DNA of 64,000 nt from Clostridia bacterium (lineage in GTDB: Bacteria; Bacillota; Clostridia; Christensenellales; Borkfalkiaceae), in assembly GCA_017621155.1 (NCBI GenBank), contig JAGATP010000057.1, positions 1 to 64,000 of the forward strand, read 5' to 3'. The notes beneath the pieces were generated by a model. It saw nothing but the letters and a program-made list of their open reading frames with translations, was not told the origin of the DNA and did no database searches. Positions 18,606-33,637 of this stretch are shown piece after piece; position 1 is the stretch's first letter, and each line of letters begins with the position of its first letter. The translations under genes were made by a program, and so were the position numbers.

Positions 18606-19235
18606 TTAAAGCTCGGAACCGTCGCCCTTATAGTTGTAAACGATTTTGCACTTTGCAGACTGCAAGAACGTGTTGTTGCTCTCGTCGATCGTGATCTTGC
18701 CCCAATCTGCTTCGCTGCCCTTGTAGTAGATGGTAACGGTCTTTGCGTTCTCTTCGAGCTTGCTGAATGCGTCGCGGCCGATCGTTGTCATGCCTTTGCC
18801 GATGACGATGACTTCGAGGTTCTTGTTGAGTCTGAACGCAGCCATGCCGAGGGAAGGAACTTCGTCGCCGAGGATGATTTTCTTCACGTTCCAGTTCTGA
18901 AGGCCTCTGAATGCCATTTCGGTGATGCCGTTGCTGACGGTGATGGACTCGACGACTACCTTAAAATCGCCTGCGTCTTTATCGTCGCGGCAAGCGCCTT
19001 CACCGATGCCGACGACAGGCTTGCCGTTGTAGGTGTTGCCGATGACGACGTTCTTATCGGTACAAGTACCGAGGTTCGAGAAAATATAGCCGTCGCCCGC
19101 GTCATTGAGGACGTAGCTGAGTCCTGCACTGCCTTCCACCGTAGAACTACCGCCGCAAGCGGAAATGCAAAGCGCGGATACCGCCATCACAGCGGAGAAC
19201 GCAACCAAAAGAAGAGATTTCAAAAATTTTTTCAT
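18606..19235 (-). CDS. Surface lipoprotein with leucine-rich repeats (BspA-like, LRR_5)
   Basis: The 209-residue protein has a lipoprotein signal peptide (MKKFLKSLLLVAFSAVMAVS, then ALCISAC, lipidated Cys near residue 27). The rest is a BspA-type leucine-rich region: VESITVSNGITEMAFRGLQN, VKKIILGDEVPSLGMAAF and LEVIVIGKGMTTIGRDAFS are successive repeats. Such proteins typically act in adhesion or binding at the cell surface. I chose the inner ATG because AAGGAG lies 7 bases before it; an upstream ATG six codons earlier is part of that ribosome binding region. It lies downstream of the first GH3/4-TM pair on the same strand, but I see no clear promoter of its own, so co-transcription is possible. 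Confidence 0.8.
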   Translation of the reverse strand: MKKFLKSLLLVAFSAVMAVSALCISACGGSSTVEGSAGLSYVLNDAGDGYIFSNLGTCTDKNVVIGNTYNGKPVVGIGEGACRDDKDAGDFKVVVESITVSNGITEMAFRGLQNWNVKKIILGDEVPSLGMAAFRLNKNLEVIVIGKGMTTIGRDAFSKLEENAKTVTIYYKGSEADWGKITIDESNNTFLQSAKCKIVYNYKGDGSEL

Positions 19236-19292
19236 ATTAAACTCCTTTTTCATTTTTCTGATACAATTACTTCTAAGTTATGATAAAAACGA

Positions 19293-19718
19293 TTACGAAT
19301 TTTTCTCGTTCGTCTTTCCCAAAAAACAACATACCACACTGATTACCGTTGCAGCCAAGAGGAGCAAACCAAAAATCAGGATAAAGGGAAACTGCGTCGC
19401 GTCGCCCCAGAAATTGATTCCGTAGATAAAGTCGACGATGGACAGGATTCCCGCAGAGAGAAACGTGGCAAATTCCGAACACAGGAGAACGACGCCCGCA
19501 AGCTCGATATAATCGCCGCCGCGCTTCTTCTCAAAGACGCACGCTAAGATCTGAGCGACAAGCGCAAGGCCTGCAAATACCACCGAAAGGATGTATTTGC
19601 TTTCGACGCCGCTTCTTCCGATCATATAGACGATGGGAGCGACGGCGAAAACCATCATGACGATGCGAAGCCAGAAAATCCAAGAACGGCTCTTTACAAA
19701 TTCAAGTACCTTATTCAT
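19293..19718 (-). CDS. Small four-helix membrane protein paired with GH3 enzyme 1
   Basis: I do not recognise the family. The 141-residue protein has four predicted transmembrane segments (about residues 14-34, 42-62, 74-95 and 109-131), a basic N-terminus and a short polar tail. Its start lies 4 bp after the GH3 stop, and its ribosome binding site AAAGGAGG is inside the end of the GH3 gene, so the two are tightly co-translated. A similarly sized four-helix protein follows the second GH3 gene (25788-26189). The two share the motif order F-L-S/R-YGI before the last helix, suggesting distant paralogy. A partner or anchor for the membrane-bound GH3 enzyme is my inference. Confidence 0.7.
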   Translation of the reverse strand: MNKVLEFVKSRSWIFWLRIVMMVFAVAPIVYMIGRSGVESKYILSVVFAGLALVAQILACVFEKKRGGDYIELAGVVLLCSEFATFLSAGILSIVDFIYGINFWGDATQFPFILIFGLLLLAATVISVVCCFLGKTNEKNS

Positions 19719-19722
19719 CTTT

Positions 19723-22650
19723 CTATCCTCCTTTCTTCATCTTTGCGAGAAGATCATATTTTTCGTTGAGGAAGCCGAAGAGCACTCCGAGCCATGTAAG
19801 CGCAACCACGCCGTCGATAACGTAGGCCGCGATCGCCCACCAGCCGTTACCGGTGGCAATCACCGTATCCTTGCTGAGTCCGTTCATCGAGCCGCAGTTT
19901 GCAACAATAAAGTGCGTGTTCTTGACTGCATTTCTGAGACGTTCGAGCATGTGTCCGTCGCCGTCGTTGATTGCCTTCTTGACTCTGTTTGCGGAAACGC
20001 TCGAGAAGTCGCAGCAAAACAGATCGAGTCCGGCTTCGTGGCACTCCACGACGTTTCCGTAAGTTGCGCTGTCGGCATCCGAAATGGTTGCGCCTTGGAA
20101 GCCCCATTCCTCTCTCAAAACGTTGGTGAGCATCGCCTTGCTCTGCGTGCAGAACGTTCCGCCGAGACGGTTAAGTCCCGTCATCAACGCCTTCATGTTC
20201 CCCTTCGTAACGGCAAGCTCGTACATTCTGAGCGCCGTCTCGCGGTATGCCTGCTCGTTGAAGAAGGTGCAAAGACCCGTCCTTCCGAACTCCTGATCGT
20301 TGCCCGCCATGTGCTTCATCGCGGCGTTGACGCCACGGCAATTCATGCCGAGAACGATGTTCGTCGCGACAAAGCCGCACATATTGCCGTCTTCGGAGAT
20401 ATACTCGAAGTTTCTTCCGCCGAACTGCGTTCTGTGAAGATCGCCGCCGACGCTGTGATTTTTCAGATTACGGCACCAAAGTCCCTCTTCGCCCATCAGC
20501 TCGCCCCTGCTCAGATGGAGCTCAGGGTTCCACGTGCAGGAGAGCGTTACCATCGAGGTGTAGTTTGCGGTCAGATGCTTCGTTCCGTACTTATAGCTAT
20601 AGTTGATGCTGTCCATTCCGTCGCCGGATGCGATGGAAGGTTTTCCGACGGACGCGACGCCTTCCGCGGTGAAGCTTTCGATCAACTGACCCGCAAGCTC
20701 GTCCAAGGTCATCTGATCGAGATAGCTCTCCCAATTCTCGTCGTCATACTCCTTGCCCATCATATCGAGAAGGACAATGTTGTTCTTTTTGCCCTGCTCG
20801 AAGGAAGACACCGCGGGAGCGTCTACGGGCTTTTGATACGTCTTTCCGTTAAGCTGTTTGATGAGATCGGCGGAAGCAATGGGCGCTTCGATCTTCTTCG
20901 GGAACGTGCCCTGCCAATCGCTTCTCGTAAGGTAAGTGCAAGAGCCGGGCGTCCAATAATTCAGATCGCAATCGTCGAATTGGTTGGTCACTTCCACGCC
21001 CGTCACGGACTTATCATAGGTCGTGTTGTCAAAGCTTAATTTCCAGGAATAGACCTTTGCGGCATCGCCGTTTTCGTCCATTCCGTCGGCAACCGTCTTG
21101 CCCTTTGCGGCGAGAATGTTGTTGAGCGCATCGTGCGCGTCCTCACCGATTGCAAAGTAATAGTCTCCTTCGGAGAGAATGTAGCCCTTCTCGGCGGTGT
21201 AGTCGTAGCTTGCGAGCAAGTACTTATCTACCGTGACTTCCACTTCGCAGGATTCGTTCGGCTCTAATTCCTTCGTCTTGGCAAATCCGACGATCTGGAC
21301 GGAGGATTTTTCCACGCGGTTGGTCTTTTCGTAGTCGCCGTAAGGGGTCTGCGCATAGACCTGAACCACGGACTTGCCCTTGACCGCGCCCGTATTCGTA
21401 ACGGTAACGTTCAAGGTATAGGTGTTGTTTTCGCCTTCCTTCACGCTGTTGAGGGTCTGCGTAAAATCGGTATAGGAGAGTCCGTAGCCGAAGGGATAGC
21501 TGACCTCCTTCGAATACTCCCAACCCTTTCCGTCGAGAGAGCCGACCGAAGCGCTTGCATTTCCGTTTCCGAGAACGCAATCTTCGTATCTCGTCTCGTA
21601 ATACTTGTAGCCGACGTAAATACCCTCTTGTTGCACGGTCACGTTCTTATAGTGTCCCGTATTCGTCGTGGAGGTAATTCCCGCCTTGACTTCTTCGAGA
21701 TTCCCCCATTCCCTCGTATTCGTGCCACTGTTGACCACTGCGGGAGCGGAGAGGGAATTGGTCGCATAGGCGTCCACGAGGTGTCCGGAAGGATTCTTTT
21801 CCCCCGTCAAGAGATTGACCATACCGGTAAAGCCCGTCTGACCGGGAGCGCCGATCCAAAGGCAGGCGTCCACGCCGTACTCTTCCAGCCAGCCCACTTC
21901 CATGGAGGTGGGGATATTGAGAATGGCGATAACCTTCTTGAAGGCGGGATCGGAAGTCACCATTTTGACGAGCTCCCTTTCCTTGTCGTGAAGGGCAAGC
22001 TGGCTCTTTCCCTCGCTGTCCTTCATGGAGAAGTCGTTGCCCTCCCCTTGCTCCCTGGAGAGGAAGATGATCGCTACGTCGTTGTACTTTTTCGACCAGC
22101 TCGATTTGATCGCGTCCGTATAGAAGCTTGCAGGCTTTTCGTTGATTTCACGGGTCAGATCCTGGGTCTGCTCCTTGGTTTCTCCGCCGTAAGCGTCCGA
22201 AAGCGTCGTATTCAGTTCAAACCCCGCCTTCGTAAACGCTTCGCTCATGGAAACGAGATCGTCACCCTTTGCGGTGTTGCCCGAAGAGTGGCACTTGATG
22301 ACGGGATTTACGCTCGAAGCACCGAAGATCGTGATACTTCTTTCGTTCGCCTGAAGGGGAAGCGCAGTGTTCTCGTTCTTCAAAAGAACGGCGCCCTCCT
22401 CCATTTCCTTCGTCGTCTGTTCCCTCGTTGCGGCAATCAGCTTTGCCTCGCTTTCCTCATTGAAGGGTCCAAACTTGCTCTCGAAGTAGACTTCGTCGCT
22501 TTCCGTCGTTCCCGTCGAACTGTCCGAGCCGCCGAGCACCGAGTTTACCGCATCGCTGTAAAGAAAGAGCGTACTCGTCGTCTCAATGGAGAGCACCAAC
22601 AGACACGACATAACAGCAACCAGTCCCTGCCATAATTTCGTTTTTTTCAT
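19723..22650 (-). CDS. Membrane-anchored, domain-permuted glycoside hydrolase family 3 enzyme (1)
   Basis: The 975-residue protein has GH3 domains in reversed order. A C-terminal-type alpha/beta sandwich comes first (from about residue 65; EEGAVLLKNENTALPL), then a fibronectin-III-like domain (LNVTVTNTGAVKGKSVVQVY, about 395-480). The catalytic barrel lies at the end (about 640-930). The barrel has the substrate-binding KHMAGND near 780 and the nucleophile Asp858 in GFQGATISDADSAT. Reversed GH3 order is known from Ruminococcus albus and Butyrivibrio beta-glucosidases. A hydrophobic helix at residues 9-30 and another at about 940-962 flank the enzyme, so it should be tethered at both ends and face outward. 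The exact sugar is unknown; beta-glucosidase or beta-xylosidase activity is likely. It leads the operon with the 4-TM gene. Confidence 0.88.
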   Translation of the reverse strand: MKKTKLWQGLVAVMSCLLVLSIETTSTLFLYSDAVNSVLGGSDSSTGTTESDEVYFESKFGPFNEESEAKLIAATREQTTKEMEEGAVLLKNENTALPLQANERSITIFGASSVNPVIKCHSSGNTAKGDDLVSMSEAFTKAGFELNTTLSDAYGGETKEQTQDLTREINEKPASFYTDAIKSSWSKKYNDVAIIFLSREQGEGNDFSMKDSEGKSQLALHDKERELVKMVTSDPAFKKVIAILNIPTSMEVGWLEEYGVDACLWIGAPGQTGFTGMVNLLTGEKNPSGHLVDAYATNSLSAPAVVNSGTNTREWGNLEEVKAGITSTTNTGHYKNVTVQQEGIYVGYKYYETRYEDCVLGNGNASASVGSLDGKGWEYSKEVSYPFGYGLSYTDFTQTLNSVKEGENNTYTLNVTVTNTGAVKGKSVVQVYAQTPYGDYEKTNRVEKSSVQIVGFAKTKELEPNESCEVEVTVDKYLLASYDYTAEKGYILSEGDYYFAIGEDAHDALNNILAAKGKTVADGMDENGDAAKVYSWKLSFDNTTYDKSVTGVEVTNQFDDCDLNYWTPGSCTYLTRSDWQGTFPKKIEAPIASADLIKQLNGKTYQKPVDAPAVSSFEQGKKNNIVLLDMMGKEYDDENWESYLDQMTLDELAGQLIESFTAEGVASVGKPSIASGDGMDSINYSYKYGTKHLTANYTSMVTLSCTWNPELHLSRGELMGEEGLWCRNLKNHSVGGDLHRTQFGGRNFEYISEDGNMCGFVATNIVLGMNCRGVNAAMKHMAGNDQEFGRTGLCTFFNEQAYRETALRMYELAVTKGNMKALMTGLNRLGGTFCTQSKAMLTNVLREEWGFQGATISDADSATYGNVVECHEAGLDLFCCDFSSVSANRVKKAINDGDGHMLERLRNAVKNTHFIVANCGSMNGLSKDTVIATGNGWWAIAAYVIDGVVALTWLGVLFGFLNEKYDLLAKMKKGG

Positions 22651-22720
22651 CAGATAGCTCCTTTCATTGATTCTCTGAAAGAGAACAAAGGGAATGCCCC
22701 TTGCCCCTTATCGCTTCTGC

Positions 22721-22726
22721 ATTATA
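22721..22726 (-). promoter_or_regulatory. -10 box of GH3-1 promoter, lacking a good -35
   Basis: A perfect TATAAT on the minus strand lies about 70 bp before the GH3-1 start. At the correct distance upstream only ATGCAA is found, a poor -35, and this DNA is part of the preceding terminator. A promoter without a -35 often depends on an activator; the LytTR regulator encoded just upstream is a candidate (inference). Confidence 0.45.
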
Positions 22727-22728
22727 AT

Positions 22729-22775
22729 CAAAAAGAGCGAAGATTGCATAGGATTGGCAAAATCTTCGCTCTTTT
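22729..22775 (-). terminator. Terminator of the first LytTR/GHKL operon
   Basis: 15-bp perfect stem AAAAGAGCGAAGATT / AATCTTCGCTCTTTT with a 15-nt loop, followed by a T-rich tract on the minus strand. It begins a few bases after the kinase stop codon. Confidence 0.85.
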
Positions 22776-22779
22776 GGCA

Positions 22780-24066
22780 TTATTTTAAATTCGGAATGGG
22801 AATCAGGGCATTGACCCCGAATATTTTGTCTTTTGCAAAGAACTCCACGTTCCCCTCGTACTTTTTGCAGATAAAGCGGATGCTCTTTGTTCCGAATCCG
22901 TGGTATCTTAAGTCGGACTGATCGGTGATCGGAATCCCGTCCCGAAAGGAAGGCTGAGACGAGATGTAGTTTTCCGCGTAAATGTTGATCATTCCGCCGT
23001 GGCGGGAAACGGTCAGATTGATGTAGCGATTTCCCGGATCTTCCTTCAATTCCCGTTGAATGGCGTTGTCGAGAATGTTTCCGAACAGGGAATAGATGTC
23101 CGTCGTTGACAGGAAGCCTATTTCCTTTCCGTCCGCCATATAGTAAAAGCGAATCCCCATCTTCTCGCAATAGACGCTCTTTGCCGTCAGAATGCTGTCT
23201 AAGGAGATGTTCCCCGTCTGGGCGACCGTGTCGTAAGTCCGCATGGATTGACGAAGCTCCTCCATGACCTCACGGCTGTCCGCACCCTTTACGTCCATCG
23301 TTTCCAAGAGGTGCTTCATATCGTGATATTTGAGATTGATGAGGTCGATCGTGTCGTTGGATATCTTATACTGTTCCTGCTCCGTCTTTATGATGCGCTC
23401 CATCATTTCCCTTTCGGAAATCAACGCATCGTTTTCGGAAGAGCTGTATTGGTATAGGAGCGCACAGAAGGTACACAGCGTCATGAGCAGCCTGCAAACG
23501 AGGTTGTTCGAAAGTCCCTCGACGCGCAAAAAATTCATCATAACGATGACGGCAAAAAGGATCAACGCGGTAATCAAGAGAACCTTCGTCTTCTTCAAAC
23601 TGATGTCGTATCGATTGCTGCCCTTTTTAAAGGTGAACAAAAACGAACACAGATAAATCGGAACGCAAAGCGCCAATTCCAGAAAGAGGAAGAGCCAATC
23701 TTCCTGCAAGGAAAAGATCACTTCCATGCAATGCCCGATATTTGCCACGACGTTTTGCAGCGCGATGGCGCCGACGCAGTTAAAGAGAATTTTTCGAATA
23801 GAGTAGTGAAAGCAGACCCGGCAGAGAACAATCGACACGAAAAAAATGAGAGCGGTCACGTAAGAGCCGAATTTTCCCAAAATGCATTCGGGAAAAAAGA
23901 GCGAGAACAAAAGGTAAACGGCGAGGCTGATCGAAATGCGCAAGCCGCGCTTCGGCTTTAGGACGAAGGGATACATGGATAAAATTTCGGCAAACAAAAT
24001 GGAAATCACAAAGAAAAGCCTTCGAAAAAAATGCGCGCTGATATATTGCACGTAAAATTCCGTCAT
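22780..24066 (-). CDS. GHKL-type sensor histidine kinase (AgrC-like), module 1
   Basis: The 428-residue kinase has about six N-terminal transmembrane helices (residues 1-210), a dimerisation/phosphoacceptor helix with LINLKYHDMKHLLETM (His near 278), and a GHKL ATPase domain with N-box NILDNAIQREL and G-box RYHGFGTKSI. This is the peptide-pheromone-receptor class (AgrC, ComD, BlpH), but no AgrB/AgrD-like genes are nearby, so the signal is unknown. I start it at the ATG that overlaps the regulator stop by 4 bp; longer readings upstream overlap the regulator gene. It sits between its regulator and the GH3-1 operon, all on the minus strand. Confidence 0.85.
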   Translation of the reverse strand: MTEFYVQYISAHFFRRLFFVISILFAEILSMYPFVLKPKRGLRISISLAVYLLFSLFFPECILGKFGSYVTALIFFVSIVLCRVCFHYSIRKILFNCVGAIALQNVVANIGHCMEVIFSLQEDWLFLFLELALCVPIYLCSFLFTFKKGSNRYDISLKKTKVLLITALILFAVIVMMNFLRVEGLSNNLVCRLLMTLCTFCALLYQYSSSENDALISEREMMERIIKTEQEQYKISNDTIDLINLKYHDMKHLLETMDVKGADSREVMEELRQSMRTYDTVAQTGNISLDSILTAKSVYCEKMGIRFYYMADGKEIGFLSTTDIYSLFGNILDNAIQRELKEDPGNRYINLTVSRHGGMINIYAENYISSQPSFRDGIPITDQSDLRYHGFGTKSIRFICKKYEGNVEFFAKDKIFGVNALIPIPNLK

Positions 24067-24782
24067 TTTCCCCTTCCTCCCGAATAGTAGTTGGAAAGCT
24101 TCGAAAGAAACTCCTCCTTCTTCGTCCTGGAAAGCGGCAGAGCGGTATCTCCGGACAAATAGACGTTCGCCGCGTCCGTTCGGTAGACGTAACGGAGATT
24201 GACGAGAAAGGACGTGCTGCAACGGGCAAAGCTCTGCGCCTCGAATTGCTTTTCGAGCTCCTTCATCGCCGAGCGAATTTGAAGCTTCCCCTGCTTCGTA
24301 TATACGTTGACGTAGTGCTTGTCCCCTTCGAAATAATAGATGTCCGAATAGTTCACGCGCACTTTTCCGAGCTGCGTCGTCGAAAGCATGACGCCTCTGT
24401 CGATATGAATATCGAGGTAACGAATCACCCTTGCAAGCTTCATGCGGAAGCTCATGTAATCGATCGGCTTGACGATATAGTCAAATGCGTTGACCTCGTA
24501 TCCGTTGATCGCATACTGCGCCATGTTCGTCACAAAGACCAAAGCGACGGTCTCGTCCTTTTCCCTCATCTTTTTTGCCGTCGCGAGCCCGTCCAGATGC
24601 GGCATTTCAATATCCATGAAGACGATATCGAATCCCTCTTTGAGTCTGTCCAGAAAATCGAATCCGTTCTGAAAGACATATACCGAGAAATTGACGTGAT
24701 TTTCTTTTTCATAGCGTGAAAGAAAATCCCTCTGTATTTTGACATAGCTTGCTTCATCCTCCACGATCGCAACTTTAATCAT
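24063..24782 (-). CDS. LytTR-family response regulator, module 1
   Basis: The 239-residue regulator has a receiver domain (MIKVAIVEDE start, phospho-acceptor Asp57 in VFMDIEMPHLDG, conserved Lys in DYIVKPIDY). A LytTR DNA-binding domain follows (about 135-235), with DIYYFEGDKHYVNVYTKQG and FARCSTSFLVNLRYV. LytTR regulators (AgrA, ComE, BlpR) bind paired direct repeats and activate promoters. I chose the internal ATG because GGTGGAG lies just before it and the receiver begins there. It is coupled to the kinase (ATGA). Confidence 0.88.
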   Translation of the reverse strand: MIKVAIVEDEASYVKIQRDFLSRYEKENHVNFSVYVFQNGFDFLDRLKEGFDIVFMDIEMPHLDGLATAKKMREKDETVALVFVTNMAQYAINGYEVNAFDYIVKPIDYMSFRMKLARVIRYLDIHIDRGVMLSTTQLGKVRVNYSDIYYFEGDKHYVNVYTKQGKLQIRSAMKELEKQFEAQSFARCSTSFLVNLRYVYRTDAANVYLSGDTALPLSRTKKEEFLSKLSNYYSGGRGK

Positions 24783-24862
24783 TTTCTCCACCTTCCTTTT
24801 CTTTGCCTCTTCTCGCTCGGTATGCGAAAAAATCTGCAAAACGGTAAATCTCACCACGATTT

Positions 24863-24871
24863 ATTATAGCA
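24863..24871 (-). promoter_or_regulatory. Extended -10 promoter of the module 1 two-component operon
   Basis: TGCTATAAT on the minus strand is an extended -10 with a weak -35 (TGGCGA) 17 bp upstream. The leader to the regulator start is about 75 nt. Confidence 0.45.
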
Positions 24872-24952
24872 GAAACTCGATCGAATCGCCATGATTTTGG
24901 CAAAATTAACGAAATTTCGGCAAAATATACTTGTCTTTCCCCTTTTAAAAGG

Positions 24953-24983
24953 AAATGAGCTCGGCGCAAGACCGAACTCATTT
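24953..24983 (-). terminator. Terminator of the GH3-2 operon
   Basis: Stem AAATGAG-TCGG / CCGA-CTCATTT with one mismatched base per arm and a 7-nt loop, followed on the minus strand by CCTTTT. It lies about 30 bp after the last gene of the operon. Confidence 0.7.
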
Positions 24984-25011
24984 TTCTGATTGGTTTTTCA
25001 ATTGTTTTTTT

Positions 25012-25791
25012 TCAGTCGACGGTGAGCACGATCTCAGTCATTGTCGCCGTGGTTTGCGCAGCAGGCCCGTAGGACGCCAACAGCGCATTGACGACTTTCA
25101 ACTCGAAGGAATAAAGCCCGTCCGCGTTCTTTGTCGCCGTATATGTTTCGCCCGTCTCGGCAGTGAACACATAGCAATTGTTTTCGAAGACATACGTTCC
25201 TCCATACGGCGTCACGTAATTCTGGCTGTCTTTGACGCTGAAGTTGCCGTCTGCGTCGCAGATGATCGTGACGTTCGACTTGACGCCGCCGCCGAACCAG
25301 CCCGCCGTGCCGGAGAAGGAGGGAATATCGTTCCAGGGCGTTCCTGAAATGGTAAAATCCTTGTCCTCATAGGAAAATTTGAGATTTCCCTCTCCTCTCG
25401 AGCCAAGATTGAGATGATAGATAAACCCGAACGTCTTGGAAGCGTTGTCGAACTGCGAGCGGACGATCGTTCCATTCGTATCGTTGAAGGTAAACGTCCA
25501 ACCCTGCCCTTCGGTAAACGTATACGTTCCATCCGTCACCCCTTCAATTTTGTTGGCGTCCACGGAGAACTTTCCATCCAATCCCTTCATCTTGACGTCG
25601 TAATCGACGTCGTTGAGCTTGATGTTGCCTTCAAAGGTAAATTCGTACTCCGTGGTATCCACGACAGGCGTCTCGGGCTTGAAGGCATTTACGATGACCA
25701 CGACGGTATGAATCGCAAAGCCGAGAATGACGGCGCAGAGTGCCATGGCGATTCCCGCCAAAATCTTTTTTTGCAAAGAGAGCGTTCTCAT
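25012..25791 (-). CDS. Membrane-anchored extracellular beta-rich protein, unknown family
   Basis: I do not recognise this 259-residue protein. One N-terminal transmembrane helix (about residues 10-36, AGIAMALCAVILGFAIHTVV) anchors a predicted all-beta extracellular domain rich in Thr, Gly, Phe and Tyr, with strand-like repeats such as EYEFTFEGNIKLN and GTYTFTEGQGWTFTF. It may be a carbohydrate- or lipid-binding domain. It is the third gene of the GH3-2 operon, overlapping the 4-TM gene stop by 4 bp with a strong AAAGGAGG site, so its role is probably linked to the GH3 enzyme. Confidence 0.65.
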   Translation of the reverse strand: MRTLSLQKKILAGIAMALCAVILGFAIHTVVVIVNAFKPETPVVDTTEYEFTFEGNIKLNDVDYDVKMKGLDGKFSVDANKIEGVTDGTYTFTEGQGWTFTFNDTNGTIVRSQFDNASKTFGFIYHLNLGSRGEGNLKFSYEDKDFTISGTPWNDIPSFSGTAGWFGGGVKSNVTIICDADGNFSVKDSQNYVTPYGGTYVFENNCYVFTAETGETYTATKNADGLYSFELKVVNALLASYGPAAQTTATMTEIVLTVD

Positions 25792-26189
25792 ACGTTTCCT
25801 CCTTTTTCACTTGCGAAGAATGCCGAAGCGATTCCGCATACTAGCATGCCGACGAAGCCAATCGTCGTCGCGATCATCGCGCCCGACATGGGATCGGAGG
25901 CAATGCCGTAAAACTGATGGGAATAGTACATAAAGCGCGAGAGCAGAAACACGCCGACTGCCGAGCCGAGGAATGCCATCACGACGATGGGCCCGATTCC
26001 GAAATAATCCTTGATGCAAAATACCACTGCCGCCACAATGCCGAGCGCGAGCAGAACGTCAACCATGGGGACGAATCCGTAGCTGTCCTGTCCCGCAATC
26101 GAATAGGCGATGAGCCCGACGAGGGCAAACAGCGCCGTGATTGCCTGTAAGTAAAAACCCGTCCTCTTTTTTGCCAAAAACTCTTTCAT
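25788..26189 (-). CDS. Small four-helix membrane protein paired with GH3 enzyme 2
   Basis: The 133-residue protein has four predicted transmembrane segments (about 12-33, 39-59, 66-85 and 103-126). Its family is unknown to me. It resembles in size, topology and position the 4-TM protein after GH3-1. I start it at the ATG at 26189, 2 bp after the GH3-2 stop, because GGGAGGAA lies about 7 bases upstream; an in-frame ATG eight codons earlier lies inside the GH3 gene. It is translationally coupled on both sides. Confidence 0.68.
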   Translation of the reverse strand: MKEFLAKKRTGFYLQAITALFALVGLIAYSIAGQDSYGFVPMVDVLLALGIVAAVVFCIKDYFGIGPIVVMAFLGSAVGVFLLSRFMYYSHQFYGIASDPMSGAMIATTIGFVGMLVCGIASAFFASEKGGNV

Positions 26190-26190
26190 C

Positions 26191-29148
26191 TTATTGTTCC
26201 TCCCTTGCTTCATGATAGGAAGCTACATACCCTACGATGCCGAGGGCGACGAGGCATCCGACGATGACGTCCAGATTGACGAGCGCCGTCTTCCACCAAG
26301 GCATGACCTTGACGATCATGGTAGAAGAGGAAACGCCGTTCATCGCCTTGCTGTTGGCGTAGACGTACAAAATTCTGTGGCAGGCCTCTCTGACCGCTCC
26401 AAAGAGCGTCACGTCGTTCAAGAGGGCGGTTTTGTTGAGCTCGCCGCTCCTGTCGTTGCCGGGAAGGAGCATGAGCTTGTCGTTGCCGAAGGCGATGCTC
26501 AAGCCGCACATATACGGTTCAAGGGCGTTATCGGTAATGGTATAGCCCAAGAAGCCCCATTCATCGCGCAAAATATCGTTCTGAAGCTCGGTGCTGACGC
26601 CGATCCAATCGCATCCGATGCGGTTGAGCGAAGTCATCACATTGCCCGCCTTGGCGACTGCAACCGCACCTTCGAAGCCGCGGAGACTGTTCTCTCTGCC
26701 CGCCTGCTCGTTGGTGTAGACGGCAAAGCCGTATCTGTCCGTCTCCTGATCGTTGAAGGCAAAGTGCTTGGGACCGCAGACGACGCCGTTATACTGCACG
26801 CCCGCCGTCACCTGTGCGCCCATGAGATAGGTGAGCATGGAGTCCTCGGAGAAGTACTCGAAGTTTCTGCCCGCATAAGGGTGACGGTGCAGGTTCAGAC
26901 CGGGGCCCCAAAGGGTGGTCATGCCCGTATAGAAGCAATCCTCGCTCATGACCGTGCCGAGCTCGTAAATGAGCTGCTGATTGAAGGTAGAAGCCTCCAC
27001 CGTCTGCGAGGGATACATTCTGGGTTCGATTTTGCTGTATTTCGATTCTCCCTCGATGACCGTTTCGCCCGTATCGTAAGAGGCGGGATATGCCACACAC
27101 GGCCCTGATCCGACGCCGTCGTTGTCGCTCGTGCCGTTGAAGCCGAGCCCCAAAATGGGATCGATCGCGCCGAAGTTCTTGCCGACCGTAGCGATCATCT
27201 CTTCGACCATCAGCTGATTGAGAATCTGATCCCAGATCTCATCGTCATACGCCTTGCCCTTTGCCATGATGAGGGAGTACGTCGTATCCGCGCCGTATTC
27301 GTACGTATCCCCTACGGGCTCGCCCGGAGTGTAGCGCTTGAAGGTGATGCGATCGATCATTTCGGCAGTCGCCGTGACCGATTGAAGTCCCGCGCACCAC
27401 GTCTTATCCCAATCGCTGCGCGAAAGATACGTCGTCGTTCCCGCTCCGACCAAATTGTTGAGGTCGGCTTTGTCGAGGCGATTCGTCACCGCCGTTTCGG
27501 TGTTGTTGTGGAAGAGTCCGTTCTCCGTCGTATAGCCGTCTTCATCGAAGGTGTATTCTCCGAGAGTGCGGAAGGAATCGTTGTTCCATGCGTACACGAG
27601 GGAAGCATCCCCCGCCCCATCCATGCCGGAGACGGAAACGCCGTTTTCCTTCTTTGCCGCAAGGACGTTGTTGAGCGCGTCGTGCGCACCGTTGCCGACG
27701 GCAAAGTAATACTTCCCTTCGTCCAGAATCCACGTCTTCGCCTTGCGATAATCGTAGCTTGCGATGTTGTAAAGATCCATCTTCACCGTCACCGTCTCGC
27801 TCGTATTCGGCTGCAATTCCTTCGTCTTGCCGATGTTCACGAGCTGAATCGCCGACTTCTCCACGCCGTTTTCCTTATCGTAATCGGTATACGGGCTCTG
27901 CACGTACAGCTGGACTGCGCTCTTGCCCGCAACGCTTCCCGTATTCGTCACCTTGACCTGCGCCGTCACGACGTCGTCCTTCACCTCACAGGAGACGAGC
28001 TCCTCCTTAAACTCGGTATAGGAAAGTCCGTAGCCAAAGGAATAATCCACCTCGTCCGCATAGCTCCAGGAAGAAGTGCTCTTGAATGCGCCCTTGGAGG
28101 AGGAAGCATTCCCCTGATTTAAGACGCAATCCTCGTACCGCGTCTCGTAGTACTTATAGCCGACGTAGATACCCTCGTTGAAGACGGTGTACTTCGTTCC
28201 GCCCGCGCCGACGCCCATCGCCTGTGCCGCCGCCGTGATCTTGTCCGCATTCGCATAGGGAACGGTATAAGCGGACTGATAGGCTGCGGAAGAGCGGGAA
28301 TCCGCCGCATAGGTATCCGTCAGTTTACCCGAGGGATTGACCTTTCCGCTTAAGATATTGCCGACAGACTTCGCGCCGAGCGCGCCGAGTCCGCCGATCT
28401 GCAAGATCGCCCCGACCTTAGGGTCTTTTTTCAGCTCGTTGATGGCGAGCGGAGAGGGAGAATTGACGATGACGATCACGCGATTCGACTGTTCTTCCGC
28501 GGCTTTGATCAGCGCCTTTTCCTTGTCATCCAGCTCGTAGTAGTTTTTCTGCGCGTCTCCACCCTCGCCCGTCACGCGGGACAAGACGACGATGACGGCG
28601 TCCGAATAGTTCCCCACGCTCGACATGGGAAGCTCGGAAGGAGAGATTTCCTCCGAAGGCGCGGAATCGTACTTGGGCTTTTTGCCCGCATAAAAATTCC
28701 ACATCTCCTCGTTGACGGAAAAGCCCGCCTGCTCCAGCCCGCGCTTGAACGACCAATTGATGTTGGAATTTCCCTGATTGCCGATCGCCGCATTGCCCGA
28801 GCTTCCCCCGTAAACGGGGCTAAAGCTCGCCTTTCCGAGCAACGTGACCTTTGCCGAAGGCGCAAGCGGCAAAGTTTTCTCGTTTTTGAGGAGAACAGTG
28901 CCTTCGTCGGTAATCCGCTCGATGATGTTCAGCTTTTGCTGCATGAATTGGCTGATGGAGCTCGTCTTTTTCTTGAAGTATTCCGAATCAACCTCTTCAC
29001 CCGTTTCCACGATTTTGTAAGACGACGTGTTCAGGAGCTGATTCACGTCGTTTTCCGCCTCGAAGGCGAGGGACGTAAGCCCGATCATCACCGTGAAAAC
29101 TGCGGTAAAAGCCGTCGTGAAACCACGACTGATTTGTTTGAGACTCAT
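26191..29148 (-). CDS. Membrane-anchored, domain-permuted glycoside hydrolase family 3 enzyme (2)
   Basis: The 985-residue paralogue of the enzyme at 19723-22650 has the same permuted order: helix (about 10-28), alpha/beta sandwich (DEGTVLLKNEKTLPLAP onward), fibronectin-III-like domain (QVKVTNTGSVAGKSAVQLYV), then the catalytic barrel. The barrel has CGPKHFAFNDQETDRYG and the nucleophile Asp873 in GFLGYTITDNALEPYM. A C-terminal helix (WWKTALVNLDVIVGCLVALG, about 950-970) follows. The two enzymes share long blocks (for example EGIYVGYKYYETRYEDCVL), but their barrels have diverged, so substrates may differ. AAGGAGGT precedes the start. It heads a three-gene operon and diverges from the module 2 two-component genes. 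Confidence 0.88.
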   Translation of the reverse strand: MSLKQISRGFTTAFTAVFTVMIGLTSLAFEAENDVNQLLNTSSYKIVETGEEVDSEYFKKKTSSISQFMQQKLNIIERITDEGTVLLKNEKTLPLAPSAKVTLLGKASFSPVYGGSSGNAAIGNQGNSNINWSFKRGLEQAGFSVNEEMWNFYAGKKPKYDSAPSEEISPSELPMSSVGNYSDAVIVVLSRVTGEGGDAQKNYYELDDKEKALIKAAEEQSNRVIVIVNSPSPLAINELKKDPKVGAILQIGGLGALGAKSVGNILSGKVNPSGKLTDTYAADSRSSAAYQSAYTVPYANADKITAAAQAMGVGAGGTKYTVFNEGIYVGYKYYETRYEDCVLNQGNASSSKGAFKSTSSWSYADEVDYSFGYGLSYTEFKEELVSCEVKDDVVTAQVKVTNTGSVAGKSAVQLYVQSPYTDYDKENGVEKSAIQLVNIGKTKELQPNTSETVTVKMDLYNIASYDYRKAKTWILDEGKYYFAVGNGAHDALNNVLAAKKENGVSVSGMDGAGDASLVYAWNNDSFRTLGEYTFDEDGYTTENGLFHNNTETAVTNRLDKADLNNLVGAGTTTYLSRSDWDKTWCAGLQSVTATAEMIDRITFKRYTPGEPVGDTYEYGADTTYSLIMAKGKAYDDEIWDQILNQLMVEEMIATVGKNFGAIDPILGLGFNGTSDNDGVGSGPCVAYPASYDTGETVIEGESKYSKIEPRMYPSQTVEASTFNQQLIYELGTVMSEDCFYTGMTTLWGPGLNLHRHPYAGRNFEYFSEDSMLTYLMGAQVTAGVQYNGVVCGPKHFAFNDQETDRYGFAVYTNEQAGRENSLRGFEGAVAVAKAGNVMTSLNRIGCDWIGVSTELQNDILRDEWGFLGYTITDNALEPYMCGLSIAFGNDKLMLLPGNDRSGELNKTALLNDVTLFGAVREACHRILYVYANSKAMNGVSSSTMIVKVMPWWKTALVNLDVIVGCLVALGIVGYVASYHEAREEQ

Positions 29149-29172
29149 AATTTACCTCCTTGGTTTTCCACC

Positions 29173-29201
29173 ATTATAAGGAATGGTCGCTTAAAAATCA
29201 A
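29173..29201 (-). promoter_or_regulatory. Promoter of the GH3-2 operon
   Basis: TTGATT (29196-29201), 17 bp spacer, perfect TATAAT (29173-29178) on the minus strand, about 25 bp before the start codon. Confidence 0.75.
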
Positions 29202-29281
29202 GAGAGATTTCCACGCTGTCCTCTTTTCGGGTTATTCTGCGCAAAAAGGCAGATCAAAGCGCAATTTACGCCCGTTCAAAG

Positions 29282-29348
29282 ACAATTCGGACGAAAAAAA
29301 ACAATTGATATTGACTTTTTTACAAAAAAATGATACAATTCGAATTGT
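29282..29348. promoter_or_regulatory. Cluster of ACAATT elements, possible LytTR or repressor operator
   Basis: ACAATT occurs at 29282, 29301 and 29335; the last is half of a perfect 14-bp palindrome ACAATTCGAATTGT (29335-29348) that covers the -10 and start region of the regulator promoter. Direct repeats upstream of a LytTR operon suggest autoregulation, but the 19-bp period differs from the roughly 21-bp period usual for LytTR sites. Confidence 0.35.
29311..29339 (+). promoter_or_regulatory. Promoter of the module 2 two-component operon
   Basis: TTGACT (29311-29316), 17 bp spacer, TACAAT (29334-29339). Transcription should start just before the ribosome binding site, giving a very short leader. 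Confidence 0.75.
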
Positions 29349-29361
29349 GGAGGGAAATTGC

Positions 29362-30078
29362 ATGAAGACAATACGGATCGCCGTCGTCGAAGACGAATCG
29401 GCAAACGCCCTGCAAATCGAAAAATTCATCGCGCTCTATGCAAAGAACAACAAAATCCCCGTGGAGCTTCTGCTCTTTTCGGACGGAGAGAGCTTTTTAA
29501 AGCACAAGGAGTCCTTCGACGTGGTGTTTATGGACATCGAGCTTCCCGGCATAGACGGGATCACCTGTTCGAAGAACCTTAGAAAACGGGACAAAGGCGT
29601 GCTCATCGTCTTTATCACCAATCTTTCTCAGCTCGCCATTCGCGGCTATGAGGTTTCCGCATTCGACTTTATCGTCAAGCCCGTCCTATACAGCGATTTC
29701 TGCTTCAAGCTGCAACGCGTCTTCGCAGCCCTGCAAAGCACCAACGGCGACGCGAAGCTAAAGCTCGAAAATCGGGAAACGATGGAAATCGTCTCCATTG
29801 CGGAAATCGTCTATGTGGAAATTCTCAACCACAACCTCATCTATCATCTGACAACCCGCGACTTCGTCACGAAGGGTCGGCTTGCCGACGTGGAAGAACA
29901 GCTCAAGCCCTATCACTTTTTAAAGTGCAACCGCTGCTATCTCGTCAATCCCGCGCACATCAAGACAATCAGCGGATTCAATCTCTCTCTGACGACAGCA
30001 AACGTGACCATTTCACGCCCCCAAAAGGCGTCCTTTTTGCGTGAATTCAACGAATATCTTTTAAAGAGCGGCTTATAA
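29362..30078 (+). CDS. LytTR-family response regulator, module 2
   Basis: The 238-residue regulator has a receiver domain (Asp58 in VFMDIELPGIDG, Lys in DFIVKPVLYS) and a LytTR DNA-binding domain (about 140-236; IAEIVYVEILNHNLIYH and FLKCNRCYLVNPAHIKTI). It is the same class as the module 1 regulator at 24063-24782. GGAGGG lies 6 bases before the chosen ATG, where the receiver begins. Its stop overlaps the kinase start (TAATG). Confidence 0.88.
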   Translation: MKTIRIAVVEDESANALQIEKFIALYAKNNKIPVELLLFSDGESFLKHKESFDVVFMDIELPGIDGITCSKNLRKRDKGVLIVFITNLSQLAIRGYEVSAFDFIVKPVLYSDFCFKLQRVFAALQSTNGDAKLKLENRETMEIVSIAEIVYVEILNHNLIYHLTTRDFVTKGRLADVEEQLKPYHFLKCNRCYLVNPAHIKTISGFNLSLTTANVTISRPQKASFLREFNEYLLKSGL

Positions 30079-31394
30079 TGGATTCCTATCTCTTTTATTT
30101 TCGCATTTACGGCGAACACACCTTCCATCTTTTCCTTCTCACCCTTCTTTTGTGCCTGCACTACCCGAAAAGAGAAAAACTTCCCCTGCGGCTCGCCTGT
30201 TCTCTTCTCCTTACTCTTTTTTCCGTCGCGCTTGCAGCGCTCTTGCACAGTCTGCAAGCCTCTTTCGGATTCGGAGGGTATTACGGAACAATTCTCACCT
30301 CCTTTATCGGCTATTTGATCCCCATACTCTCCCTCTTCTTTTCCTTCTCCCTTTGCCTGCTCCGATCGGAAAAGCTCATTCTCTTCAACCTCTGCACCGC
30401 CTTCGCCATTCGCCAGATCGGCGAAGAAGTCTGCGCCCTGTCCGCTTTTTTCATTCCCTCGCTCGAACTCGGCACTCCCGCCTTTTCGAATTACCGCTAT
30501 TTGCTCCTCGTCCTTACTTCTTTTCTCTCTTATTTTATCGTCATCCGCAAGGTCAACGTCAAGACCAAGTCGACGGAGGTCAACGACAAGGCGCTTATCG
30601 TTTCCATCGTCGGCGTCCTCGCCTGCATTCTCTTTTCCCAAGTACAATACCAGCACATCACGGAACACGACGCACTCAACAGAATCGGAGAGGCAAGCCA
30701 GATTCTAATCGACCTGTTTATTTTCATCCTGCGGCTCGGTATTCTCGAACGCAACATCTTGATCGACGAGAGCTTTTTGTTGCAGCAAAGCTGGGTGGAA
30801 AAGGAAAAACAGCTCAAGCTGTTTAAGGAAAATCTCGACGACATCAACATCAAGTATCACGACCTGAAAAAGATTCTCTCCACCATTAAGGAACAGTCGG
30901 GCATCGTCCCCAAAGAGCTCGTGGACGAGCTCGAACATTCCGTCGCCGTGCACGAATCGTACGTCGATACCGGAAACACGACGCTGGACGTGATTTTAAC
31001 GCAGTACACGATCAAAAGTCAGGCAAATTCCATCCGTTTTTCCTGCATTGCCGACGGAAAATGCGTCTCCTTCCTCTCCCCGACCGACCTCATCGCCCTC
31101 ATCTCCAACCTCCTCGACAACGCCTTCGAGGCAGTCCTTCCCCTTGCGGAGAACGAACGCTCCGTCGGATTCATTCTGCAAGAGACGAGGGGCGTCGTCA
31201 CCCTGCACACCGAAAATAACTATGGAAGCGAAATCGTTCTCGAAAAGGGAGAAATCCTCTCGAGCAAGGCGGACAAGCGCTATCACGGCTTCGGCATGAA
31301 GAGCATCAAGCGAATTGTGGAAAAATACGGCGGCGCGTTCAGCGTGGACACCGAACATCACGTTTTCAAGGTCAATATCCTCTTTCACCTGTAA
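30078..31394 (+). CDS. GHKL-type sensor histidine kinase (AgrC-like), module 2
   Basis: The 438-residue kinase has six to seven N-terminal transmembrane helices (residues 1-225), a phosphoacceptor segment DINIKYHDLKKILSTI, an N-box LISNLLDNAFEAVLP and a G-box RYHGFGMKSIKRIVEKYGG. The ATPase domain is very like that of the module 1 kinase, while the membrane part has diverged, as expected if the two sense different ligands. It is the partner of the LytTR regulator just upstream and is divergent from the GH3-2 operon. No pheromone precursor gene is visible. Confidence 0.86.
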   Translation: MDSYLFYFRIYGEHTFHLFLLTLLLCLHYPKREKLPLRLACSLLLTLFSVALAALLHSLQASFGFGGYYGTILTSFIGYLIPILSLFFSFSLCLLRSEKLILFNLCTAFAIRQIGEEVCALSAFFIPSLELGTPAFSNYRYLLLVLTSFLSYFIVIRKVNVKTKSTEVNDKALIVSIVGVLACILFSQVQYQHITEHDALNRIGEASQILIDLFIFILRLGILERNILIDESFLLQQSWVEKEKQLKLFKENLDDINIKYHDLKKILSTIKEQSGIVPKELVDELEHSVAVHESYVDTGNTTLDVILTQYTIKSQANSIRFSCIADGKCVSFLSPTDLIALISNLLDNAFEAVLPLAENERSVGFILQETRGVVTLHTENNYGSEIVLEKGEILSSKADKRYHGFGMKSIKRIVEKYGGAFSVDTEHHVFKVNILFHL

Positions 31395-31457: not shown

Positions 31458-33626
31458 TTAAAATCTGCGTTTTCTGCCGAGGACGACGCCCGCGCCGATC
31501 GCGCCGATGCCGATGACGCCCGCGCCTGCAGCAGCCACCCAAATTACCCAGGCATAGGGATCGGGAGGATAAGGCACTTCCCTTTCCCCTTCGATTTGCC
31601 CGACAAATCCGCTCATTTCGCCGTGAATGCCGACGATTTTGTAGACAAAGCGGACGGAATCCTCTCCCGGTTCGGCGGTATAGGTGAGCTCATAATCTTC
31701 GCCCAAGACGAGCGTCTCACCCTCCCAGACGAGGGTAAAGCAGGACGAATCATAAGAGGAAACGTCGCGCTCAATGGCAATTTCCACTTCCGCAAAGTCG
31801 ATGACCTTGAAGGAATAGGAATCGCCGCACCGCGAACAGGAGTGCAGTTCATAGCGCTCGTCCGGCTGATCGGCGGCAAGCACGTAGTTGTGACCGAGCT
31901 TGGTGCTCTCCTTTGTACGCGTGGATACTTCTCCGCAGTAGCAGACCGCCTTTTCCGTGCCGTCTTCGGTGCAGGTCGCGTCGTTCTGATAGACGTATTG
32001 AAAAACGTGCTCGTGCGCGGCAATCTCAAAGAAAGCTTCCTTCCTGCCCGTAAAGTCGCCGAGGCCCTTGATGACGAGGGACGCCGTTCCCGCTTTGTCA
32101 TTGTCCGTAAACGAGACGGTATAATCGACGTTTTCCTCAAGCGTCTCCCCTTGAAAGACGACGGTGAAGGAGGGCGTAACGGGCTTTCCGAGGTATTCGA
32201 AGCCCTTTTCGGGCGTTTCTATGGTAAGCTGCGCATAGGAAATGTCTTTACCGACGATACGAGATTCTCCGCAGCGAGAGCAGACCTCGATGAGATACCC
32301 CTCTTCAGAGGTGTGATCGTAAGAAAAGTTGTGTCCGAGCGCAGAACCCTCGTCGACGACGGTATCCGAAGCGCCGTCGTAGCAATGCGCCGTCTTCGTT
32401 CCGTCCTCGGTGCAGGTCGCGTCGCCGTTGGAAACGTAATCGTCAAACTCGTGCACGTGGGGATACATCGCGTCCGTATAGGTGAGATAGTTGATCTGCG
32501 AATGCCCCTGTACGATGGCAGCCTGATTCTCGACAAAATACATGATCGTGTAGATCATATCCCGATGGGTGATGGCGTAGTAGCCGAGATCGCCGATGAG
32601 GTCGGCTGCGGTAAAGTCCGCCGCCCCGATCAGGTAAGGCACCAAGTACGTCGTCATGATATCGACGGGGGCGAGGTTCGTGCCGAAGGTGGTATCCTTC
32701 TTGTAATAATCCGCCTGCGTGGGACACCAGGAAGAGAGGTTAGTAGAAAACTCTTGCACGTTTCCAAGGCCCGCAAAGGCGACCTCCGTCTTCGAAGTGA
32801 AGAGGGCGTTTGCCTCTTCATTCAGCGCTTCGTCGTATGTATGCGTCGTGCCGTGGCGGGAAAATCCCCAGCTCTCCAGAGGAAGCGCGGTGATGACGTC
32901 TCCCGCGTAATTGTAGTTGAAGATGTTGGGATAGGCGACGGGCTGTTTGGTCGTCGCAGGAACGGCAAAGTTGTACACGAAGGTATGCTCGGGCGTAACA
33001 AATTCCGCATGTTCGTTGACGGTTGCGCCGAGGAGATTTGCCACCGCGCCGCCGCGGGAATGTCCCGTAATCCAGACCTTATTGTGCTCCTTTTTTTCGC
33101 TGCCGATGACCTCGCTCAGTTTGGCAAACACTTCCTGTGCCGCAGTATCGAATCCGCGGTGCACCTCGCCTTCGCCGATGTTAAAGTTAGACTGCCACTG
33201 CATATCGCCGGCAGTCCCGCGGAGGAAGACGCCGTAGAGGGTATCTTCTCCGATCTCTCTGCTGGCAATGGTATACGTCACGAAGTCGCAATCTCCGCTC
33301 GTGGCGACGCGGTCGTAATTGACCTGCTCCACCACCGTAAAGCCGATGGAAGAAAGCACTTTTTCCATCTCCTCCGCCGACGAATAGACCTCGGCGGACA
33401 TCGCCATCGAGAGCTTGGCGATTCTTCCGTCCTCCCCGTTTTGGGAGAACCAATCGTCGTTATAGACGCCCTCGTAAGAAAGCACCTTCGAGGAAACGGC
33501 ATCGGCGTATTGCACCGTATAAGCTACCGTATCCGCCACCGCCGCGTCGGCAATCGGCGCGGGAAGGCAAAGAGAAAAAGCCAAAGCGCCCGAAACGAGA
33601 ACGCCAAACCATCTCTTTCCTTTCAT
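31458..33626 (-). CDS. Secreted, cell-anchored class 3 lipase with C-terminal Cys-containing repeats
   Basis: The 722-residue protein has a signal peptide (MKGKRWFGVLVSGALAFSLC onward, cleaved near PIADAAVA). A class 3 lipase domain (about 60-360) follows, with catalytic Ser190 in WITGHSRGGAVANL and a likely Asp in YAGDVITALP. The C-terminal half has two copies of a repeat (F-x-Y-V-x-N-DATCTEDGT-x-x-A-x-C-Y, followed by LGHN and C-S-R-C-G). The end is a transmembrane helix plus RKRRF, a membrane-anchor pattern without an LPXTG motif. It probably hydrolyses glycerolipids outside the cell. Longer upstream readings run through tsaD and are not used; the ATG has AAAGGAGGG before it. It lies 11 bp after tsaD. 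Confidence 0.85.
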   Translation of the reverse strand: MKGKRWFGVLVSGALAFSLCLPAPIADAAVADTVAYTVQYADAVSSKVLSYEGVYNDDWFSQNGEDGRIAKLSMAMSAEVYSSAEEMEKVLSSIGFTVVEQVNYDRVATSGDCDFVTYTIASREIGEDTLYGVFLRGTAGDMQWQSNFNIGEGEVHRGFDTAAQEVFAKLSEVIGSEKKEHNKVWITGHSRGGAVANLLGATVNEHAEFVTPEHTFVYNFAVPATTKQPVAYPNIFNYNYAGDVITALPLESWGFSRHGTTHTYDEALNEEANALFTSKTEVAFAGLGNVQEFSTNLSSWCPTQADYYKKDTTFGTNLAPVDIMTTYLVPYLIGAADFTAADLIGDLGYYAITHRDMIYTIMYFVENQAAIVQGHSQINYLTYTDAMYPHVHEFDDYVSNGDATCTEDGTKTAHCYDGASDTVVDEGSALGHNFSYDHTSEEGYLIEVCSRCGESRIVGKDISYAQLTIETPEKGFEYLGKPVTPSFTVVFQGETLEENVDYTVSFTDNDKAGTASLVIKGLGDFTGRKEAFFEIAAHEHVFQYVYQNDATCTEDGTEKAVCYCGEVSTRTKESTKLGHNYVLAADQPDERYELHSCSRCGDSYSFKVIDFAEVEIAIERDVSSYDSSCFTLVWEGETLVLGEDYELTYTAEPGEDSVRFVYKIVGIHGEMSGFVGQIEGEREVPYPPDPYAWVIWVAAAGAGVIGIGAIGAGVVLGRKRRF

Positions 33627-33637
33627 AATACCCTCCT

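Follow-up and report, generated by a model that had tools for sequence, protein, structure and literature searches.

Why should a bacterium keep, twice within 13 kb, a sensor kinase and response regulator of the kind usually read as peptide quorum sensors next to a glycosidase that appears to be tied to the membrane? The stretch of DNA analyzed here (the window) comprises 64,000 nucleotides, positions 1 to 64,000 of contig JAGATP010000057.1 (assembly GCA_017621155.1), and belongs to an uncultured clostridial bacterium of the family Borkfalkiaceae whose small draft genome has 2,049,433 bases and is 98% complete. Between positions 18606 and 31394 the window carries two modules, each including an AgrC-type GHKL histidine kinase, an AgrA-type response regulator with a LytTR domain, a glycoside hydrolase of family 3 (GH3) with reversed domains and a predicted helix at each end, and a small protein with four transmembrane helices (the 4-TM partner). 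A preliminary description had read them as two parallel modules that may sense a surface glycan or a product released by the GH3 enzyme. Judging from the sequences, we conclude that these modules are probably glycoside sensing-and-hydrolysis units built from exchangeable cassettes; at the level of the genome they look like mix-and-match sensing and cutting of many different sugar compounds, and modules of this make-up are also present in gut bacteria that belong to several phyla.

Every gene that had been assigned to the two modules was recovered with its coordinates and strand (gene starts are longest-open reading frame (ORF) calls), and both modules are real; the genome as a whole, however, has about 54 of them. 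Profile searches gave 49 matches to GHKL (PF14501) and 57 to GH3_C; the regions around these matches were taken from the genome and genes were called there, some modules being cut by the ends of the draft contigs. In these regions 53 loci with an anchored permuted GH3 were read, and one more, on contig C55, is cut at the contig end. A kinase lies within 1.5 kb of the GH3 gene at 40 of the 53 loci, and at 37 of them it is placed upstream on the same strand within this distance, where ~1.8 would be expected (binomial P ~2e-42). Of the 49 kinases, 46 have an adjacent LytTR gene, and 27 of the 28 4-TM proteins in the regions read adjoin a GH3 gene (28 of 29 with the member on C55, a confident hit of a whole-genome profile search whose neighbours are a GH3 and a putative lipoprotein). 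Together, the four gene families occupy ~13% of the genome. To judge from their low median identities (27% for the kinases, 34% for the regulators, 32% for the GH3 enzymes and 19% for the 4-TM proteins), the module paralogs are old.

Since GH3 and GHKL/LytTR genes are both numerous in this genome, and one tandem pair on contig C33 has clearly been duplicated as a whole, their adjacency could in principle be coincidental or the outcome of local duplication. This explanation is hardly credible: it is already contradicted by the binomial probability and by the presence of the same arrangement in other phyla. In a tree of 168 GH3 sequences, the 51 of the host are interleaved with those of other families and phyla and need 35 changes, at least 29 of which are forced by supported branches, so they do not derive from one local burst, and a simple recent tandem burst is excluded.

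The association of GH3 and sensor pair, whose recurrence in related genomes had been proposed as a check of the joint module, is conserved in the same bacterial family and in other phyla. A long GH3 was found in 40 of 151 sampled genomes of the family, and the host has by far the most candidates in this sample (68; the next genomes have 40, 33 and 31). For a direct contrast, 13 genomes with a long GH3 and 13 without it were picked after the GH3 search. All 13 of the former contain both GHKL kinases (2-47) and 4-TM proteins; among the latter a kinase is present in one (G001, as two short frames) and the 4-TM protein, marginally, in two (Fisher P 3e-6 for kinase and GH3, and 2e-5 for 4-TM and GH3). 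The contrast persists within genera g1, g3, g8, g10 and g11. In the wider phylum, a comparable GH3 was seen in only 3 of 299 other genomes. A scan of the collection identified relatives that likewise carry the two helices in Lachnospiraceae, Oscillospiraceae, Erysipelotrichaceae, Coriobacteria, Streptococcus suis, Bifidobacterium asteroides and others, and the order regulator-kinase-GH3-4-TM occurs, for example, in B. asteroides (L078) and at loci L079 and L085.

What kind of enzyme is shared by these loci? In both GH3 proteins of the window the Pfam domains follow the order GH3_C, Fn3, GH3_N, and hydropathy predicts a helix at each end, as had been described. The enzyme of module 1 (19723-22650, minus strand, 975 aa) carries GH3_C at residues 88-393, an Fn3-like domain at 428-504 and GH3_N at 743-899, and its helices span residues 4-22 and 940-958. 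That of module 2 (26191-29148, minus strand, 985 aa) was identified by Pfam, aligns to T. neapolitana Bgl3B and has its helices at residues 10-28 and 955-973. Of the 51 GH3 ORFs of at least 900 aa, 48 have a predicted helix at both ends and one of the other three is cut at a contig end. The nucleophile D858 and the acid/base E203, within a GEG motif (module 1 numbering), are kept in 51 of 51 full-length proteins, as are a Lys-His and an Arg examined alongside, and both align with the corresponding motifs of Bgl3B (2x40); from established knowledge of GH3 enzymes we take these two residues to be catalytic, and activity is predicted. When the related fusion protein L081 was modelled with AlphaFold, the GH3 part had a predicted local distance difference test score (pLDDT) mostly of 80-97, and its best fold matches were the permuted GH3 structures 5wug and 5k6l/5k6o (E 1e-41 to 1e-46). 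Concerning specificity, the NCBIfam models for arabinopyranosidase, beta-glucosidase and xylosidase match these GH3s, all of them below their cut-offs. Another GH3 gene of the family, at L017:4983-7585 (G000:C9), is broken into overlapping frames of 461 and 423 aa, which may reflect a frameshift, a pseudogene or an assembly error.

The 4-TM genes follow the GH3 genes within 1-4 bp: the one of module 1 (19293-19718, minus strand) lies 4 bp after GH3, and that of module 2 (25788-26189, minus strand) begins 1 bp after the GH3 stop. The two proteins are only 20% identical; nonetheless, profile searches started from either one converge on a single family of 28 members, which answers the comparison suggested in the preliminary description. 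An AlphaFold (AF2) model of the family shows four helices (pLDDT 90.6). No Pfam or NCBIfam family and no PDB sequence match was obtained for it, nor any structural match at E<0.001 in the PDB or among viral models; a Pfam match to 8xMP (E 0.026) and matches to G protein-coupled receptor-like folds were discarded as noise. In L081 and L144 the 4-TM domain is joined to the N-terminal end of GH3 and in L090 to the C-terminal end, which argues that both proteins may work together. In the model of the L081 fusion, the 4-TM part has a pLDDT of 33-56, and the 4-TM rows that were added became scattered in the alignment; the low score allows no conclusion on how this domain packs. It is possible, although doubtful, that the 4-TM partner joins the GH3 and its two helices in a membrane complex, where hydrolysis outside the cell would be coupled to uptake or signalling across the membrane, the 4-TM protein being a sugar channel or a messenger to the kinase, and that such effector cassettes are mixed with interchangeable sensors to provide ~50 parallel channels for "tasting" glycosides. 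In two other proteins (L099:4010-6709 and L101:3325-7074) a 4-TM domain is fused to long repeats, and those of L101, which were scanned, match Lipocalin_4.

The sensor genes of the window have the make-up expected of an Agr-type pair. In module 1 the regulator (24063-24782, minus strand, 239 aa; LytTR 9e-21, Response_reg 2e-18) and the kinase (22780-24066, minus strand, 428 aa; HATPase_c_5 2e-19, ~7 transmembrane helices, HDMK and NILDNA motifs) share 4 bp. In module 2 the regulator (29362-30078, 238 aa, receiver and LytTR domains, the latter with 7e-16) and the kinase (30078-31394, 438 aa; HATPase_c_5 1e-21, HDLK and NLLDNA motifs, ~6 N-terminal transmembrane helices) also overlap, and they are transcribed from the plus strand, divergently from the GH3 operon on the minus strand. 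In the genome, the kinases have a GHKL domain, 43 of 49 have 5-7 predicted helices (counted over the whole ORF) and 41 of 49 contain both the H-box and the N-box motifs. The regulators combine a receiver with a LytTR domain; they are of AgrA type at family level only, because the match to the NCBIfam AgrA equivalog is far below its cut-off.

It follows from this make-up that the pairs could be quorum or inter-species peptide receptors, with the GH3 genes as mere regulated targets (surface remodelling, biofilm glycan): the topology with 6-7 transmembrane helices, the GHKL/LytTR composition and the weak matches of the regulators to LytR/AgrA models all resemble AgrC/AgrA. We consider this quite unlikely. 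As had been observed for the pheromone maker, AgrB (PF04647) was found nowhere in the genome (AgrD was not directly searched), so the pairs are not classed as an Agr quorum-sensing system; it would be odd to find peptide channels in such numbers as the ~49 mutually diverged kinases, most of which neighbour an enzyme gene; and in genomes of the same family without a long GH3 the kinases are lacking as well, apart from the truncated frames in one of 13. In addition, some kinases of this family occur in sugar loci away from any anchored GH3. On contig C6 (L013:1208-10085 = G000:C6:16207-25084) a kinase/LytTR pair stands beside a major facilitator superfamily (MFS) sugar transporter, a GH78 alpha-L-rhamnosidase and a permuted soluble GH3; on contig C39 a kinase is found with an FGGY kinase, a fucose-isomerase-like protein, a class II aldolase and a GH3. 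A protein of the 4-TM family lies just upstream of the C6 locus, which is possibly a rhamnoside locus under the same type of sensor. The earlier suggestion that a glycan or a GH3 product is sensed fits these two loci and the LytTR-type repeats found before GH3 genes, and the binding of such a ligand is a prediction.

The sites bound by LytTR proteins are direct repeats of 9-11 bp, ~12 bp apart and slightly upstream of the -35 region, whose spacing is conserved while their sequence is not (PMC6193735). Near-perfect 10-bp repeats at a spacing of 21 bp were detected in 18 of 138 upstream regions of anchored GH3 genes, where shuffles predict 1.4, and none of the other spacings was enriched to a similar degree. 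This spacing agrees with the published LytTR geometry; the repeat sequences vary between modules. In an enlarged set, a good -10 box is located 34-48 bp past the second repeat in 8 of 21 cases, compared with 1-2 in the neighbouring offset ranges. The upstream regions of the regulator genes showed no excess of repeats, therefore there is no evidence for autoregulation. Within the window, a terminator-like inverted repeat with a T-run (22774-22730, minus strand) was read from the sequence between the kinase and GH3 genes of module 1, followed by a TATAAT-like -10 element (within 22729-22712, minus strand). In module 2, sigma-70-like promoters, identified by consensus match only, precede the GH3 operon (29173-29201, minus strand, TTGATT-17-TATAAT) and the regulator-kinase operon (29311-29339, plus strand, TTGACT-17-TACAAT).

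Do sensor and enzyme descend together? The preliminary description had treated them as one joint module; their association is conserved, but the sensor pair and the GH3/4-TM pair behave as separate cassettes. Distances between modules correlate for kinase and regulator (r 0.53) and for GH3 and 4-TM (r 0.66), in both cases beyond all permutations, and no correlation was found between GH3 and kinase (r 0.09, P 0.14) or GH3 and regulator (r 0.03). The presence of a 4-TM partner, mapped on the GH3 tree, requires only 11 changes vs 55 in shuffles. The effector part of module 2 (the beta-rich protein described below, 4-TM and GH3) has a counterpart in G084, a genome of another genus, with 73% identity, where an AraC regulator and a GH43 gene are placed upstream instead of the sensor pair. 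In addition, a 7.3-kb piece carrying an AraC regulator, a lipoprotein, a GH3, a 4-TM and a sigma factor gene is 99.7% identical between both genomes (L011:1033-8366, G000:C5; L142:1654-8986, G084:C4), other shared stretches being near 70%; its AraC-to-4-TM part is flanked by 97-bp direct repeats, and the piece carries a repeat that occurs nowhere else in either genome. A recent transfer would explain this piece, an assembly chimera being the less likely alternative. In three of the five ortholog pairs that could be tested the kinase is retained as well, therefore the exchange is occasional rather than constant.

A variable element of the modules is the accessory protein. At ~19 GH3 loci, counted by eye, a small lipobox-bearing or anchored protein adjoins the enzyme, and these proteins are mutually unlike in sequence. 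One of them is the lipoprotein of module 1 (18606-19253, minus strand), with leucine-rich repeats of BspA type (LRR_5 E=2e-7) and a lipobox-like ISAC noted by eye, whose membership had been proposed with caution. In module 2 this place is taken by a beta-rich protein anchored by one N-terminal helix (25012-25791, minus strand), whose gene overlaps the 4-TM gene by 4 bp and has an ortholog at the equivalent place of the G084 locus (L143:2264-3043); no Pfam family matched it above the cut-off, and a kinship with the lipocalin-like repeats of L101 was dropped, given that the BLASTP match (E 0.48) was not significant. Directly adjoining module 2 there is a gene (31458-33674) whose lipase_3-like product is secreted and carries a membrane helix at its C-terminus.

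Even if the ligands are glycans, the enzymes might trim glycans of the cell itself or of its host for adhesion or niche adaptation rather than for nutrition, with the sensors reporting the state of the surface. Double anchoring, which should keep the enzymes at the cell surface, would suit this role, as would the dissimilar anchored accessory proteins, the low number of GH43 enzymes (three matches in the genome) and the lack of any PF01547 (SBP_bac_1) sugar-binding protein, which is present in all 14 control genomes. Its absence is unusual for a genome with more than 50 glycosidases. Surface remodelling is nonetheless unlikely, because ~54 diverged enzymes exceed the needs of one surface glycan, the orthologous cassette of G084 sits with GH43 and AraC genes, and sister kinases adjoin sugar transporter and sugar-catabolism genes. 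Considering the absence of PF01547 together with the three GH43 matches, the released sugars are probably imported by secondary transporters.

A further proposal is that each kinase responds to one glycosylated small molecule, such as a plant defence glycoside or an antibiotic, which the enzyme would detoxify or activate. GH3 enzymes in general act on aryl and terpenoid glycosides, and DesR, an antibiotic-activating GH3, is among the distant fold matches; nothing in the sequence separates this role from nutrition. However, no efflux or resistance genes were seen in the modules and PADLOC found nothing, and we regard the proposal as very unlikely. The negative result with PADLOC also led us to reject anti-phage defence.

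The reading as glycoside sensing-and-hydrolysis units would imply the following sequence of events. The polytopic AgrC-type kinase would detect a glycan-derived ligand outside the cell and phosphorylate its LytTR regulator, which would then activate the operon by binding the direct repeats that precede the GH3 promoter. The product would be an exo-acting GH3 whose two terminal helices hold it against the outside of the membrane. It would be accompanied in half of the cases by the 4-TM partner, with which it may form a complex, and often by an anchored accessory protein; import of the released sugars would fall to transporters encoded elsewhere. Over time, ~54 diverged versions may have been assembled from a sensor cassette (regulator and kinase, or sometimes AraC instead) and an effector cassette (GH3, to which 4-TM and an accessory protein may be added).

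Several observations weigh against this reading. There is no kinase within 1.5 kb at 13 of the 53 GH3 loci and no 4-TM gene at 27 of the 53, and the absent correlation between GH3 and kinase may partly be saturation. To our knowledge, the ligands of AgrC-type kinases are all peptides. The excess of repeats at a spacing of 21 bp is firm, yet it covers only 10-13% of the GH3 promoters, and both GH3 promoters of the window have only weak repeats (in module 1, an 8/10 repeat at 20-bp spacing that is not significant). Control ORFs also peak at a spacing of 21 (16/458), with 15, 18, 24 and 27 raised too; because of this three-base periodicity, a limited part of the excess is ascribed to codon background. 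Finally, the genome has no PF01547 protein to account for the uptake of the GH3 products.

If the reading is correct, bacterial glycan use would gain an AgrC/LytTR sensor type and an exo-enzyme that is tethered to the membrane and has a 4-TM partner not described before, and the default reading of AgrC-like kinases as peptide quorum sensors would come to an end. A genome that devotes ~13% of its DNA to one module with swapped sensors and enzymes would represent a natural experiment in matching the specificity of sensing with that of the enzyme. Given that the module occurs in B. asteroides and Lachnospiraceae, its ligand, its operator and the function of the 4-TM protein could be tested in culturable species.

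How do the modules relate to known systems? With AgrBDCA they share the GHKL kinase with 6-7 transmembrane helices, the LytTR regulator and the overlapping genes; in contrast, the genome has no AgrB and an enzyme operon replaces the pheromone genes. They resemble the Bacteroidetes polysaccharide utilization loci (PULs), as generally known, in that a large set of parallel units would each handle particular glycans with a sensor and a surface enzyme of its own. Those PULs, however, use SusC/D with hybrid two-component or extracytoplasmic function (ECF) sensors, and the modules have AgrC/LytTR sensors, only an exo-acting GH3 and a 4-TM partner; no SusC/SusD was seen among the neighbours read at the modules, a genome search not having been made. 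Among the Gram-positive PULs (gpPULs) of Roseburia and Eubacterium, the gene list of the arabinoxylan locus Ros-7 includes, as in our modules, a LytTR regulator together with a histidine kinase (PMC5320581). The gpPULs contain ATP-binding cassette (ABC) or glycoside-pentoside-hexuronide (GPH) transporters, whereas neither window module has a transporter gene, and thus they fall outside the gpPUL definition (a co-located carbohydrate transporter, regulator and glycoside hydrolase). The permuted fold itself is already known from GlyA1-type GH3 enzymes, with the order C-domain, FnIII, barrel (PMC5104943); these have the same domain order and include the closest solved folds (5k6l, 5wug), but the enzymes studied here differ in having terminal membrane helices on both sides and a sensor linked to them, and the word "transmembrane" does not appear in the text of PMC5104943. 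The closest precedent is Butyrivibrio proteoclasticus B316, where three LytTR regulators, each near a secreted GH3 with a C-terminal transmembrane helix (PULs 7, 21 and 33), were read as carbohydrate sensing (Kelly et al. 2010, PMC2914790); the resemblance to our modules lies in the regulator and its neighbour, a GH3 that is secreted and ends in a membrane helix. That account, in the portion that concerns these loci, deals with the three of them in one sentence, and an N-terminal anchor, a 4-TM protein, cassette exchange and a large expansion are not described in it. The modules analyzed here extend that picture with anchoring at both ends as a trait of the family, the 4-TM family and its fusions, an architecture that crosses phyla, the repeat spacing, the reassortment of cassettes and the scale, all of which are new.

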